From positions 1 to 41,972 of the IMG/VR virus record IMGVR_UViG_3300050821_003022: DNA of 41,972 nt. The stretch is one strand, 5' to 3'. How positions within the stretch are numbered: position 1 is the stretch's first letter; each line of letters begins with the position of its first letter. This DNA comes from a virus. The position numbers and the translations under genes were made by a program. The notes beneath the pieces are model-generated. The model saw only the letters and a list, made by a program, of their open reading frames with translations, was not told where the DNA came from and ran no database searches. Shown one piece after another: positions 32,202-38,278 of the stretch.

Positions 32202-33413
32202 CTAATGTTTGGTAGGACCGATCCAAGTATAGCTCTTGTCCCCTTTTGTGGGTAGCAGCTCTACCTTGATGAGGCCCATCTGGTAGAGTGTATCTTCCAC
32301 CACACGGAGTGTTTGACTATCTATGTCACGGTAGAATCTCGCAAGCACCAAACTTCGCGTTGTGATCTGCATGGTCTCGATGTAGTTCTTGATCTGCTCC
32401 GTGGCGTCGCCGGTTAGGGACTTGCCCAACCCACCGAAGGTGAGACCCATCTTCTGCTCAGTTAGTACCAGGATGCCTTTAGCTCGTTCCAAGTCCTGTA
32501 GTTCGATCTTCATAGCATCACTTCGGCTTGCCGAACAGAGCATCATAACCTTTCGTAGATGCGTCTGCCGCCTTTCGCAGTATGCCCTGAATCTCGGATC
32601 ATCCACAGGGTACTTGCCCTGTGCCAAGAGCTTGTCCTGCTGAGTGTACCATACGCTGTAAGCCGCACGCGCTTCAGGTGAGAGAGTAAAGGCACCGCTG
32701 AGCTGATTGATCCTCTCGAGGTCCTGTACCAGCATCTCACCCAGAGCTGCTTCTTCGTTGGTAATAGAGTGATCTGGGACGGTCTTACCTTTGCGTTCTT
32801 CAACCACGAAGATGACGCGTGAAGTGAAACCACCTCCGATGGCTTCATGTGGAAGCATGCTTTGAATCCACTCCGGAGCAGTGGCACCCATAAGGTTGAA
32901 ACATAGTCCCTGTATGCTGTCGATTCCACGACCGATAGTTTCATATTCCCAGTTGTCCTTTGAGTCGTACCAATCAGTCATGTTGGCCAGCAGTTTGATG
33001 TCACCTTGGCCGAGAAATACACTCAGCTCCTCACTGAATGCTGTGAGGCTGCAGTGGAATTTTATCTTCCCATCGGTAGGGTCTTGGTAGTTGGCATTGA
33101 CACGCTTCATGGCACCTACAATTGCTTCGCGGCCAGAGGTTGATTCGGGAGCAACTGCCACCCCAGGTACGCACTGAAGCATAGATTTTGCGATACCAAG
33201 GGCCACACCCTTACGCGCACCACCCGAAGGTCCAATGAGGATAACAAACAAGTTCGGATAGAGAACTTCAAAGCCCATCTCAAGTCGAACCTTACGTTGG
33301 AGAGCCCCAGCGATAACACTAAGTGCACACCAGAGATGATAACTTCGAGGTGGCTCGGTATTCTCGACATAGGTTAGGTACCCCTCTATCCAATCAGGCA
33401 GGTTTCGGCTCAC
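32202..33413 (-). CDS. DUF3987-like replication ATPase
   Basis: A 403-residue protein. The N-terminus (YHLWCALSVIAGALQRKVRL) and a P-loop variant GPSGGARKG (61-69, with KG in place of the usual GK) are typical of DUF3987 primase/helicase-like proteins. An ETTRSL-like helical C-terminus (about 340-395) may be a winged helix for DNA binding. It lies directly after the polymerase and overlaps it by 20 bases, so it is probably the helicase-like partner of the replisome. Confidence 0.75.
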   Translation of the reverse strand: MSRNLPDWIEGYLTYVENTEPPRSYHLWCALSVIAGALQRKVRLEMGFEVLYPNLFVILIGPSGGARKGVALGIAKSMLQCVPGVAVAPESTSGREAIVGAMKRVNANYQDPTDGKIKFHCSLTAFSEELSVFLGQGDIKLLANMTDWYDSKDNWEYETIGRGIDSIQGLCFNLMGATAPEWIQSMLPHEAIGGGFTSRVIFVVEERKGKTVPDHSITNEEAALGEMLVQDLERINQLSGAFTLSPEARAAYSVWYTQQDKLLAQGKYPVDDPRFRAYCERRQTHLRKVMMLCSASRSDAMKIELQDLERAKGILVLTEQKMGLTFGGLGKSLTGDATEQIKNYIETMQITTRSLVLARFYRDIDSQTLRVVEDTLYQMGLIKVELLPTKGDKSYTWIGPTKH

Positions 33414-34914
33414 TGACCAGCTCCACTAGTTGACGCGCTTCGCTCAAGTCCTTAATGTCGCGCATACCAAGTGGATTGCGTTCTTTGTGGTAGCCTCCCC
33501 AGTTGAAGCCCATCTTCATGTCAGTTGCGATTTTGAAGCTACGACCATTGTAGTGTAGTTCAGGTGAGAGCCTGGCATACACACCTTCTTGTACGAGTTC
33601 AAAGTTGGCACTCATAACTACTGATATCGGTATCTGCATCAAGATAGAATCATGCACCTGTGCAAGAATATCTATATTGTAGCCTCCAACAGCACATAGG
33701 AGTGGATCGTTGTAGATTTGGACCATTCCTTGATTCAAAGAATCCACGACTGTGCTTTGTGGTAGCATGCTATAAGCCGACTTCCACATCTCCGCGCCCC
33801 AAGCATCCATAAATCTCACCCTACGTCCAAAGCAATTGGTCAGTGCACGATCCTTCTGCAACTGCCGCTTGATCCATTCGTAGTAGTTACGGATGCCGGG
33901 ATAGATGCTGTGGTACATCTCCACTATTCGCTTGGCTTCTGCAGGCTCAATCTCATTGATAAGCGCAAACTGATTTGGTCCTTCATCGTAGTTGAGGCCG
34001 TGATTTGACTTCTTCCCACACTGTCTTCCGGACATAGTTCTCGGTAGTGCTGATCCAAACCGTGCAAGAATCTCATCCCCAAAGCGAAGATCATGAATGA
34101 GATCAGGATCACTATTACTTCCCACAAGCTTACTTTCATACTCGATTACCTCCGGTTCCACGCCGAACATCAGTGAAGCAGTGTGAATGTGAGTGTCTTT
34201 GCCAGCCTCCACGACGCTTATCATGTTAGCGTCTTGTGTTAGGTATGCCATGACTACCCACTCTGCTTGTCTCTTGTCAACTTCCCAGAAGATGTAACCA
34301 GGGTCTGCTTGGAGGAACTTCTTGAATTCTTGGGGGAGATTCTGATTGTTAGTCCCTGTCCCAAAAACAGTTTTTGAAGAACTGAGTCTTCCGAATTTGG
34401 TGCCTCGAGGGTTATAACTGCACCGGAGTCGACTATCGGAGTCAAATGCAATGTCAAGGTATGTTCCGTGTAGCTTATTGAGCCCTCGTATGTCTTGGAC
34501 GAGTTTCGCTGCGCGGAGTCCCGGACGCTTGGCTGTTCCGCGACTAATACGCTGAAGAGAGATGTCATCTATAGTTACCTTTCCATCTTTGTAGTAAGGT
34601 TGTATACCAAGCTCACCATAAAAATAAGCTTGGCATTGCTGAGATGAATTTACGTTTAGTTCTCTCCCAACGATCTTGTTTAACTCCTCTTGTCTTTCAG
34701 AAGCAGTTCTAAGAATATCGAGCTTGGTTTCTTCTAGTGCCTTAAGATCAACTCGTATTCCTCGCGCTTGAAGGAACATAAGGGGCTCGATTATATCCTC
34801 AGTCATATCATAAGCGGAATCAAAGCCGCTCTTTAGCTCATCCCAAAACTCGTTATGAGCCTGTAAGGTACACGCTGAATCCAAAGCGTTGTAGCGAAGG
34901 AAGTTATTATCCAT
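33394..34914 (-). CDS. DNA polymerase family A, palm-fingers-thumb part
   Basis: A 506-residue protein with the polymerase half of a family A enzyme. Motif A has D213 (WEVDKRQAEWV), the O-helix motif B reads R297-x3-K301-x3-H305-x3-Y309, and motif C has H421-D422 (AQVHDSI). The residue that selects dideoxy-nucleotides in T7 (Tyr526) and Taq (Phe667) is His305 here. Its first residues carry YNALD (8-12), which is the third proofreading exonuclease motif, whereas the other exonuclease motifs are in the separate gene at 35326-36378. The ATG overlaps the HNH gene by 8 bases. It may act only after assembling with that partner. Confidence 0.85.
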   Translation of the reverse strand: MDNNFLRYNALDSACTLQAHNEFWDELKSGFDSAYDMTEDIIEPLMFLQARGIRVDLKALEETKLDILRTASERQEELNKIVGRELNVNSSQQCQAYFYGELGIQPYYKDGKVTIDDISLQRISRGTAKRPGLRAAKLVQDIRGLNKLHGTYLDIAFDSDSRLRCSYNPRGTKFGRLSSSKTVFGTGTNNQNLPQEFKKFLQADPGYIFWEVDKRQAEWVVMAYLTQDANMISVVEAGKDTHIHTASLMFGVEPEVIEYESKLVGSNSDPDLIHDLRFGDEILARFGSALPRTMSGRQCGKKSNHGLNYDEGPNQFALINEIEPAEAKRIVEMYHSIYPGIRNYYEWIKRQLQKDRALTNCFGRRVRFMDAWGAEMWKSAYSMLPQSTVVDSLNQGMVQIYNDPLLCAVGGYNIDILAQVHDSILMQIPISVVMSANFELVQEGVYARLSPELHYNGRSFKIATDMKMGFNWGGYHKERNPLGMRDIKDLSEARQLVELVSEPKPA

Positions 34915-35329
34915 GAGAAACTTTCAAGAGCTTTACACAAGCCCTACACATTCTTCTACCATCAGTTCTTATGTAGGTATTATCTTCATTAAACTCATGG
35001 CCTCGCTTACAAACAGTTCTAGTAGCATTAAAGCTTTGCTTTCTCTCTGTTGTATCCCTTGAATTGTCCAGATGTGTTCCAAGATATAAGTGATCTGGGT
35101 TTATGCATTTCTTATTATCACACTTATGAAGGACAGATAAACCTACTGGAATGAGCCCATTATGAGCCTCCCAGGACAATCTATGAACCGAACTTGCTAT
35201 TCCGTCGGCTCGCATAATTCCATAGTTATTGCCGGATATAGCGCCCTGCCATAGCCAGCAATTAGTGTCCTCATCTACTATTATTTTAGATAGTAGTTTC
35301 GACTTTACTTGCTCTCGGTAGGTTATCAT
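34907..35329 (-). CDS. HNH homing endonuclease splitting the polymerase
   Basis: A 140-residue HNH nuclease of the AP2/HNH_3 type: CWLWQGA (24-30), HRLSWE (49-54), LHKCDNKKCINPDHL (67-81) and LGTHLDNSRD, then a zinc element CKRGHE plus CRAC (107-131). It sits exactly between the exonuclease and polymerase parts, overlapping the upstream stop by ATGA and the downstream start by ATGGATAA. Homing endonucleases insert in essential genes and spread by cutting empty sites. Confidence 0.88.
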   Translation of the reverse strand: MITYREQVKSKLLSKIIVDEDTNCWLWQGAISGNNYGIMRADGIASSVHRLSWEAHNGLIPVGLSVLHKCDNKKCINPDHLYLGTHLDNSRDTTERKQSFNATRTVCKRGHEFNEDNTYIRTDGRRMCRACVKLLKVSHG

Positions 35330-36378
35330 GCCTCTTCCTTAATGTTAGTGAATTTGAAATCCTTCCAAAAAGCTTGACTTCCACAATACAAGCTACCCAA
35401 GAAGGCTAAACTCTTTGGAAGGTCTGGATAGATTATGGAATGTGCTACCATTGTATCATGAATAGGACCAGCTATCCTTATTCCACACTTAGTGAGAAGA
35501 AAGTGTCGGTCGAAAATACTATTCTGCAGCACCTTAATGGAGTTTGGATTCCCAAGCGTCCTCTGCATCCCACGATAGAGTTCGAGCTCCTCTTGCTCCA
35601 GCCAACCATCAGCCAGTGGTAGGCTCATAGCCACCTTGGGATCAGAGCAGAAAGAGATGCATGCGATCTCGTGGTTGGTTACTTCAATGTCCACGGAGAG
35701 GATTGGCTGCGACTCGTAGTAGGCTAACCACTCCAACGCTTCGGTCACGGTGCCGAACTCGTAGACAAGCTGGCGCTCAGGTCGTCGCAGTTCAGGGAAT
35801 AAACTCTCAACTTTGGCTTTGCCAAGGTCCATTGAGATCACATGACGGTAGAGGTAGGGCTTGAATTCCTTGGTGGTTAGGCTACCTTTGTCACCGCCCT
35901 TCCGATCGTAGAGACTCGCTGCAGGATGTATCGCGGGAATCACCTTAAATATACGGCTCATACCTATAGAGGGCATCACATAGCCCCGTAACTGGGTTAT
36001 ATAGGTGTTTCCTGTAAGGGCTGCCATTGCGGTCTTGCCGCAGGCTACCACGACGTTAGGATTCAGCTCTTCGAGTTCTGCTTGGAGCTGGAGTACCCAC
36101 TCGTGTCCTGCGGCGCTGAAGGTCTTTCCGTCGAAGTAGGGACTGATGTTATTTCCAGGTGGTTGCAGCTTAACGACGTTGGTAAGATAAACTTCACTTC
36201 TTGTGAGATCAGCTGCGTGCAAGCACTGTTCGAGTACCCCACCAGCTGGGCCAACAAAAGGTTTAAGCTGTATGTTCTCATGTGCACCTCCTGCTTCACC
36301 AACGATAGCGATCTTAGCGTTGTGAGGGCCAACGCCTGGGATAATGCGAGTTGCTTTGGTAGGAAAGAATGAAGTCAT
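35326..36378 (-). CDS. Uracil-DNA glycosylase domain fused to 3'-5' exonuclease part
   Basis: A 350-residue protein. Residues 1-170 are a UDG superfamily domain: IVGEAGGAHE (25-34), PFVGPAGGVLE (40-50), LTNVVKLQPPG (65-75) and the His-containing loop AIHPAASLY (149-157). Residues 220-350 are a family A proofreading exonuclease part with SVDIEV (228-233) and QNSIFDRHFL (285-294) and HDTMVAH (307-313). A UDG-polymerase fusion is known from other phages such as SPO1. Here the chain ends at KEEA, before the third exonuclease motif, which is in the polymerase gene downstream. Confidence 0.85.
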   Translation of the reverse strand: MTSFFPTKATRIIPGVGPHNAKIAIVGEAGGAHENIQLKPFVGPAGGVLEQCLHAADLTRSEVYLTNVVKLQPPGNNISPYFDGKTFSAAGHEWVLQLQAELEELNPNVVVACGKTAMAALTGNTYITQLRGYVMPSIGMSRIFKVIPAIHPAASLYDRKGGDKGSLTTKEFKPYLYRHVISMDLGKAKVESLFPELRRPERQLVYEFGTVTEALEWLAYYESQPILSVDIEVTNHEIACISFCSDPKVAMSLPLADGWLEQEELELYRGMQRTLGNPNSIKVLQNSIFDRHFLLTKCGIRIAGPIHDTMVAHSIIYPDLPKSLAFLGSLYCGSQAFWKDFKFTNIKEEA

Positions 36379-36889: not shown

Positions 36890-38278
36890 TTAAGCTCCTT
36901 GGGTTTGTTGCTCTTCGTAGGCCTCAAGCGCTGCGAGCATGTCAGCATCGCTTAGCTCCTCGACTTCCTCCTCAGCAGAGCTTTCCTCTCCGTTAAGGTG
37001 CATGGCATCCTGCTCCACGGCTAGCATGAATTTGTCCTTGTACTCGGGGTTGAGGTCCCAGCCGAACACTTTGTTTCCCCTGTTATAGCACGCACGAATC
37101 GTTGCACCGGAGCCGAGGAATGGAACGAGGACTATTCCTGTGGGGTAACAAAACAGGTCCAAGAGTTCTTCGATCAGCAGAACGGGGCGTTCTGTCGGAT
37201 GTATCTTCCTGGCTCCTGCCACGCCGGGAAAGTTGAAAACGTTCAACCTACCACGTTTCAGCATAACGGGGTTTCCTTTGCGGCAGACGAAGAAAGGTTC
37301 ATAGCCTCGAGCGAGATAGATTTCAGGCTGCATCGTTTGTCCGATTTCCTTTGCCCAGATAGCAGGAATCTCGTCAACCTGCCAGCCGGCGAGGCGAAGG
37401 CAGTTTAGTGCATCTTGATGCCAGCTTGGGCCAAACCAGAACACCAGCCACGAGTTGGGAGCTGCCACACGAAAGAGCTCAGTGCTCAGTTTGAGAAGGA
37501 ACTCAGGGTAGGCATCTTCGGAGACTTCCTCGTAGCTCTGTACACTCGAGGTTACTTCTTCGTTGCCACGTTTCTGCTTGTTCAAGTTGATTCCGTAAGG
37601 AGGGTCGCACTCGATGAAGGAGATGTTTCCGTCAGTGGGAAGCTCAGCTAGACCAGCGAACGTATCGCCTATACGATAGTTGGCCTCGGCAACCTTTAGC
37701 ATCTCATGAATCCCTTTAGCAAGGGCATGACCTCCGCTAGCTTGGCGCTCGCGTAGCACTTTGATGATTTGTTCTTCCTCGAGTTTCTTGACTACCTTCT
37801 CCGCATCGTTCGCGGTGTTCAGTTCAGCTAACTCAGGCATAGCCTCGACAGCCTTAGCCATCTTGATAGCGCGGGCTACGTCAGTCACACTGCGACTCAG
37901 TAGCTCGGCAGTTTTCCTGCCAGACCAGTCCAGGTTCTTTTCTTTGTAGAGTCTGTCAATCTCAAGGATGAGCGCATTCTTCTCGCTCCAGGTGAAGTCA
38001 GCACGGAAAGTGTTCTCGATTAGCTCGATCTCGCGGGAGTCGACTTCCTCGCCAGCCTCTCGTATGAGGCAAGGGATTTTCTCCAGCCCAGCCAGAATCG
38101 CTGCACGGACTCTACGTTCACCTGCAAGCAAGTGCATGTTCGAGTCAAGCGTGATAGGTTGGAGCACTCCTTTCTGCCTAATGGACTCAGCAAGGTCCTC
38201 GAGGCCAGTGAATTCCTTACGATAGCGTTCTCCGACGATGATCTTGTCAAGCTGAACAAACTTGAGTTTATTCTCCAC
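36890..38278 (-). CDS. ParB-N domain fused to DNA methyltransferase
   Basis: A 462-residue two-domain protein. Residues 1-95 are a ParB-like nuclease/CTP-binding domain (LAESIRQKGVLQPITL, LAGERRVRAAILAG at 51-64). Residues about 200-425 are an amino-methyltransferase with the catalytic DPPYGI (225-230), a KIHPTERPV segment (358-366) and the AdoMet-binding FLGSGATI (387-394). Motif IV before motif I makes it the beta class (N6-adenine or N4-cytosine). The C-terminus is acidic. Such fusions modify phage DNA, probably protecting it from host restriction. Confidence 0.88.
   Translation of the reverse strand: MENKLKFVQLDKIIVGERYRKEFTGLEDLAESIRQKGVLQPITLDSNMHLLAGERRVRAAILAGLEKIPCLIREAGEEVDSREIELIENTFRADFTWSEKNALILEIDRLYKEKNLDWSGRKTAELLSRSVTDVARAIKMAKAVEAMPELAELNTANDAEKVVKKLEEEQIIKVLRERQASGGHALAKGIHEMLKVAEANYRIGDTFAGLAELPTDGNISFIECDPPYGINLNKQKRGNEEVTSSVQSYEEVSEDAYPEFLLKLSTELFRVAAPNSWLVFWFGPSWHQDALNCLRLAGWQVDEIPAIWAKEIGQTMQPEIYLARGYEPFFVCRKGNPVMLKRGRLNVFNFPGVAGARKIHPTERPVLLIEELLDLFCYPTGIVLVPFLGSGATIRACYNRGNKVFGWDLNPEYKDKFMLAVEQDAMHLNGEESSAEEEVEELSDADMLAALEAYEEQQTQGA

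Follow-up and report, generated by a model that had tools for sequence, protein, structure and literature searches.

A family A DNA polymerase divided between its proofreading motifs in a large phage clade, with an HNH gene as a late occupant of the gap

Split and interrupted polymerase genes in phages

Essential phage genes are at times found in two pieces with a mobile gene between them. The nrdA gene of Aeromonas phage Aeh1 is split by the HNH gene mobE with its function retained, and gene 60/39 of phage T4 is divided in the company of mobA (PMC2988022). The 41,972-base virus record analysed here, referred to as the window, holds a locus of the same outline. A gene encoding a uracil-DNA glycosylase (UDG), a 3′-5′ exonuclease and a family A DNA polymerase (Pol) is present as two open reading frames (ORFs) that flank a free-standing HNH gene. 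Unlike nrdA and gene 60/39, this gene was split before the HNH gene arrived: the same break is found in dozens of phages, mostly without an HNH gene, and it cuts through the proofreading active site of the polymerase. The locus distinguishes the cause of a split in an essential gene from the mobile gene that now sits in the gap, two matters that are usually told as one.

Gene 43 of Aeromonas phages 25 and 44RR (43A/43B, family B) is likewise a split replicative polymerase with variable gap content, and a seg gene may have invaded it when it was already split (PMC2988022). That polymerase belongs to family B and the split is known from few phages, whereas the present one belongs to family A, and a tree with 36 all-split rows answers a similar question. 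In the OM43 phages MEP401 and MEP402, a family A polymerase is also encoded by two ORFs with a small ORF of unknown function between them, and the authors leave the possibility of an intron open (PMC10580990). Their break lies inside the polymerase domain, unlike the one described here, which falls between the exonuclease motifs Exo II and Exo III. The PaBG-type DNA polymerase I has the same domain order of UDG, 3′-5′ exonuclease and polymerase and is one chain (PMC7412058), in contrast to the two chains found here. No report of a polymerase split between Exo II and Exo III was found in the literature searched, a search that left most subscription journals outside.

Group I introns carrying HNH genes are classically found in phage polA, as in SPO1 and Bastille with I-HmuI and I-BasI. 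The window resembles them in having an HNH endonuclease within a phage family A polymerase gene; it differs in that no intron RNA was found and each half of the gene has its own stop and start.

Organization of the split locus

The genes lie on the minus strand, to which all coordinates in this section refer, in the transcriptional order UDG-exonuclease, HNH, Pol and a DUF3987/primase-like gene. The UDG-exonuclease chain (35326..36378, 350 amino acids (aa); Pfam UDG 1.4e-22, DNA_pol_A_exo1 1.7e-07) consists of a family 4-like UDG domain (aa 14-164) and an exonuclease domain that extends to Exo II, and it terminates in ..WKDFKFTNIKEEA. Its C-terminal tail NIKEEA (35329..35346), conserved in the split clade, is followed directly by the stop codon (35328-35326). 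The HNH gene (34907..35329, 140 aa; Pfam HNH_3 9.7e-15) fills the slot between the halves. Its start overlaps the exonuclease stop in an ATGA (35326-35329), while its end is overlapped by the Pol start over 8 nucleotides (nt) (34907-34914). The Pol chain (33394..34914, 506 aa; Pfam DNA_pol_A 2.8e-40) carries the family A polymerase domain. The phrog_17 DNA polymerase profile spans both halves back to back (478-802 and 806-1240), and together the ORFs, the Pfam matches and the phrog_17 matches confirm the three genes where the first-pass annotation had placed them.

It is highly probable that this locus represents a genes-in-pieces family A DNA polymerase with an old split, a swappable cargo slot and a late HNH gene. 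Early in the history of a large phage clade, a stop/start would have arisen once in the flexible loop that joins Exo II to the Exo III helix and so have broken an ancestral UDG-exonuclease-polymerase gene. Both chains would be translated from one operon through stop/start coupling, and would then assemble and complete the proofreading site in trans. The gap would have served as a tolerated port for small genes, either empty or filled with varied cargo exchanged between close relatives, and the HNH gene would have entered a locus that was already split.

The break within the proofreading site

Alignment of the homologue at locus L057 (L-numbers denote loci of relatives) with Klenow polymerase matches DIE, QNxxFD and YNxxD to the motifs Exo I, Exo II and Exo III. 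In the window, the Exo I carboxylates D230 and E232 (VDIEV, 35683..35691) and the Exo II residues N286 and D290 (QNSIFD, 35509..35523) are on the first chain and are invariant in 28/28 aligned split exonuclease chains. Exo III (Y8 and D12 in YNALD, 34879..34893) lies on the Pol chain; both residues are invariant in 19/19 aligned Pol chains, and the Y-x3-D pattern is retained in all 47 split loci. All elements of a family A polymerase with a proofreading exonuclease are therefore found, distributed over two chains as first proposed. This separation is real and old, has arisen repeatedly and is conserved.

Intact one-chain UDG-exonuclease-Pol homologues (L038, L051, L083 and many others) bear out the earlier proposal that one ancestral gene is now in two pieces. 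They can be aligned end to end with the residues at the junction. In L051, 17 residues separate YYKD from YNGKD. When L057 is read through, its two chain ends and the stop occupy this same stretch, the chains being parted by a TAG alone. As judged from the alignment with intact homologues, no residues have been lost at the junction and no intein-half-like addition has been made. A structural model of the L057 read-through is Klenow-like, with a mean predicted local distance difference test score (pLDDT) of 93.9 and Pol I 8oo6 as its best match (TM-score by target 0.82). The stop codon corresponds to residue 340, within the least confident ten-residue block of the model (331-340, pLDDT 57). The helix that bears Exo III (343-369, with Y348 and D352) begins two residues past the new methionine, and by this model the window's Pol chain starts just ahead of the predicted Exo III helix. 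Modelled alone, the first chain of the window is confident save for its first three residues, one loop and its last nine residues.

The Exo I D/E and Exo II N/D residues are kept in 34/34 split exonuclease rows and in 15/15 others, a count of 49 rows that omits the short row L092 and to which 14 later-added loci do not belong. For the pairs L060/L061 and L063/L073, each half has a ratio of nonsynonymous to synonymous substitution rates (dN/dS) of 0.04-0.06. Both halves are under strong purifying selection. With its halves so constrained and the catalytic residues of each chain retained, a proofreading site composed of two chains is probably the best reading of the locus. Such natural two-chain proofreading polymerases would allow a direct test of whether an exonuclease active site can assemble in trans; one of them is found in a cultured phage, Caulobacter phage Kuura (Kuura_029 with Kuura_026).

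Several points weigh against this picture. The tail of the window's first chain is predicted to be disordered when alone (pLDDT <50, residues 342-350), and the read-through model, being a single chain, would speak for compatibility with a normal site rather than for association of the chains. The selection estimate comes from two pairs, dS being saturated or nearly so in more distant comparisons, and conserved residues notwithstanding, the exonuclease could be impaired. The deeper nodes of the trees below have moderate support (86 in IQ-TREE), and L136 and L053 float in the mixture-model tree. The last scan for relatives supplied the best 80 of 273, and the proportions of loci given below are those among the relatives obtained in all. 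An HNH or other mobile gene may also have caused the original break and have been lost later.

Both the HP motif and the GEAPG-like motif of the UDG domain look eroded in part of the clade (among others L041, L042, L043, L050 and L059), which suggests that these members have lost UDG activity. The corresponding motif in the window reads GEAGGAHE.

Distribution of the split and contents of the slot

Relatives were gathered by wider scans and from phage records, with repeat and near-identical records removed. The same break is present in 47 distinct phage loci, the window included. The slot is empty in 7 of these, defined as at most 20 nt to the first Pol profile column, and exceeds 100 nt in the other 40; its cargo is an HNH gene in 4 (the window, L049, L065 and L121) and something else in 36. 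The next junction downstream serves as a control. The DUF3987/primase-like gene (32202..33413, minus strand) overlaps Pol by 20 nt in the window, and this junction is tight in relatives: the Pol-primase gap is at most 30 nt in 37 of 42 split loci and above 100 nt in 4, compared with a slot gap of at most 30 nt in 7 of 47.

In the first two relatives found (Pol 64 and 67% identical), chain one ends in NIKDEA and a stop and chain two begins at the same places as in the window, with unrelated small genes between them. Near relatives carry a gene for a Cys-rich protein of 75-84 aa (L056, L039 and L002), a different gene (L003) or none at all (L057, gap 0). Elsewhere, the slot holds a Dda-like helicase with a pyrophosphatase-like gene (L045), a dCMP deaminase (L074), a nucleotide-kinase-like gene (L077), a nucleoside deoxyribosyltransferase-like gene (L079) or, in further loci, unknown genes. 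Cargo is swapped even between close relatives. L060 and L061 share about 95% nucleotide identity in the exonuclease and 88% in Pol, and their slots begin with unrelated genes and have a common part only next to Pol; the slot of L063 contains one gene more than that of L073. Endonucleases, nucleotide enzymes and unknown small genes all move in and out of this position.

Small slot proteins of about 45-75 aa that end in a CPTCED-like sequence, often with a W..GPF stretch, recur in L041, L042, L050, L054, L059, L061, L063, L065, L069, L070, L073, L105, L117, L118 and L119. The cargo genes of relatives, sought elsewhere in the window as a lost copy, gave no convincing match. A single scan of bacterial genome contigs returned no relatives. 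The UDG-exonuclease protein as sole query found no matches in the first scan, and alignment queries later recovered relatives.

Phylogeny and number of origins

The placement of the window agrees across three trees. In an IQ-TREE phylogeny of 48 rows, it pairs with L056 (91) and is joined by L039 and L002 (94) and then by L003 and L057 (99), within a split clade (86). FastTree with 88 rows (43 split and 45 intact, with 14 rows that were short, partial or near-copies listed for exclusion) recovers a pure split clade of 36/36 rows that contains the window, with support 0.94. A mixture-model tree of 49 of the 88 rows has 24/24 split rows together at 99 by the Shimodaira-Hasegawa-like approximate likelihood ratio test (SH-aLRT), with three state changes. 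The split is old and stable throughout this clade, and it has more than one origin at the same loop.

A single clade of all split rows was rejected by the approximately unbiased (AU) test (p 7.4e-5), because a second split clade (L094 from phage Kuura, L077, L079 and L087) groups with the intact L097, L099 and L101. One clade made of the main group and L074, L135 and L142 was not rejected (p 0.37), so two or three origins, or losses, are possible. The same break arose at least twice, unless one-chain genes were rebuilt by fusion.

In Kuura, the protein that matches the UDG-exonuclease half (Kuura_029, L094:2207-3316) is annotated as hypothetical, and two unknown genes separate it from the Pol half, Kuura_026. 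Breaks of another kind were seen at L053:4603-4771 and L101:5713-6314 (Vibrio phage VS-ABTNL-3), where the exonuclease is unsplit and the polymerase domain is broken, in both at nearly the same profile position (about 193-206).

HNH genes in the slot

The HNH gene of the window is a late arrival in a locus that was already split, as its position on the tree demonstrates. Its protein has relatives of 29-50% identity and no PDB match by sequence at E<=1; residues H49, H68, H80, C24, C70 and C75 are invariant among 20 aligned proteins. It is most likely a free-standing homing endonuclease and would be expected to have homing activity. The HNH proteins found in slots show 30-37% mutual identity in those comparisons that give a match, and are placed on scattered, separate branches. 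Among the 47 split loci there are six HNH matches, four of them in the slot, which makes up 4.6% of the DNA searched. Since sampling was centred on Pol, and the window was picked for its HNH gene, 3 of 5 without the window is the fairer count.

The record of one such insertion is preserved in L065. At the end of its HNH ORF (L065:2089-2559) stands GKDSVKFNDIKENS, which repeats the exonuclease tail (WKSLVNFHDIKENS) as a second copy. When 14 other loci are compared, 13 have a tail nearer to this second copy than to the current exonuclease tail, and one is a tie. On the simplest reading, insertion of the HNH gene took place upstream of the native tail and supplied a replacement, leaving the native tail fused to the end of the HNH gene. 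An HNH gene was also seen outside the slot at L061:6943-7407, directly after Pol, where the close relative L060 has the usual 20-nt Pol-primase overlap.

Origin and maintenance of the break

The first-pass annotation had attributed the split to the HNH gene. Insertion of the window's HNH gene into an intact polymerase gene in this lineage, after the manner of mobE in Aeh1 nrdA, is very improbable. The gene does occupy the precise position of the break, its stop and start overlapping those of its neighbours, HNH-split genes have precedents in T4-like phages (PMC2988022), and L065 exemplifies an HNH gene inserting at the exonuclease tail. However, split homologues lacking the HNH gene were looked for and found among the close relatives: L057, split with 0 nt between its halves, L003, L002, L039 and L056 are all divided with no HNH gene in the slot, where an insertion that coincided with the split would have left them intact. 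For the window's own HNH gene, this origin is refuted, and the window itself lies inside an all-split clade. The similarity of the two junctions, taken earlier as a target duplicated on insertion, fails as an argument because both motifs predate the insert, being present in relatives that lack it. The GCATGA of the first junction is the overlap of the exonuclease stop with the next start and recurs as GCATGA or TCATGA in L002, L039, L056 and L060, whose cargo differs. The sequence at the second junction is the ATG-GAT/GAC with which Pol itself starts, found also in the cargo-less L057. The shared reading frame of the halves does exist in the window, but it carries no weight because chance puts about one third of loci in frame, and 14 of 47 split loci are so.

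An ancient endonuclease is a more serious candidate, although we hold it only tentatively. A mobile endonuclease might have broken the gene at the root of the clade and then been lost or replaced, its place becoming a gene slot, a history that is compatible with the old split and late HNH gene favoured here. The recurrence of HNH genes in the slot noted above, the working example of insertion with tail replacement in L065, and independent breaks at the same spot, as a conserved cutting target would produce, all fit this account. Against it, the root shows no intermediate, the empty-slot members are explained equally well by a plain stop/start mutation or by fission, and the loci were fetched around Pol, so that the HNH enrichment comes from a non-random sample.

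Production of one full-length polymerase, with the gap removed as an intron or bypassed, has the intron-bearing polA genes mentioned above as a precedent and is nevertheless a very slim prospect. No Rfam match reached the gathering score in the window, and around the junction there were only chance matches at E<=5. The gaps of close relatives are unrelated sequences with stop/start overlaps of their own, such as exist at both junctions of the window, where exons would have none; gap lengths run from 0 nt upward, and the frame is kept in only those 14 of 47 loci. Split-intein fractured genes have reportedly been described by Dassa et al., and a polB of this type is reported in PMC6892783. Post-translational joining by a split intein is hardly credible here. 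Phage polymerases are known intein hosts, and an intein-like insert does occur in Pol of L064 and L068 at another site. Yet the chain ends align directly with the intact homologues and leave no room for intein halves, and no intein halves or motifs were found at the chain ends in this alignment. The inserts themselves (L064:5471-7957 and L068:5642-8116) are in frame, span about 305 aa and lie between GKK and SNHGLNYDEG; the one in L064 scores just below the cut-off of the N-terminal splicing region model TIGR01445, and the one in L068 matched no intein model.

Loss of proofreading in the split chains, with the polymerase alone being of importance, is improbable, if less so than the insertion, intron and intein accounts. 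The split runs through the active site and the UDG motif looks eroded in many members, but the exonuclease carboxylates and the Exo III tyrosine are all kept, and dN/dS is about 0.04 for the exonuclease half of the two close pairs. A doubtful but conceivable extension of the two-chain site is that the break is kept for its usefulness. Assembly of a two-subunit proofreading site might be tuned by subunit ratio or by small proteins encoded in the slot. The slot itself would be an expression port maintained inside an essential gene, and its successive users would be selfish HNH genes, genes of nucleotide metabolism and small Cys-rich proteins with a possible action on the polymerase.

The NIKDEA/S tail was also considered as a built-in ribosome site. 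Its predicted binding to the anti-Shine-Dalgarno sequence (-6.4 versus a background of -3.6 kcal/mol) is no better than that of synonymous shuffles (32 loci; mean z -0.38, mean p 0.48), and selection of the tail for ribosome binding is therefore unsupported.

Neighbouring genes

The window also encodes a fusion protein (36890-38278, minus strand) that combines an N-terminal domain of ParB with an N6/N4 DNA methyltransferase. Homologues of this fusion are found near the UDG-exonuclease gene in most relatives where this was measured.

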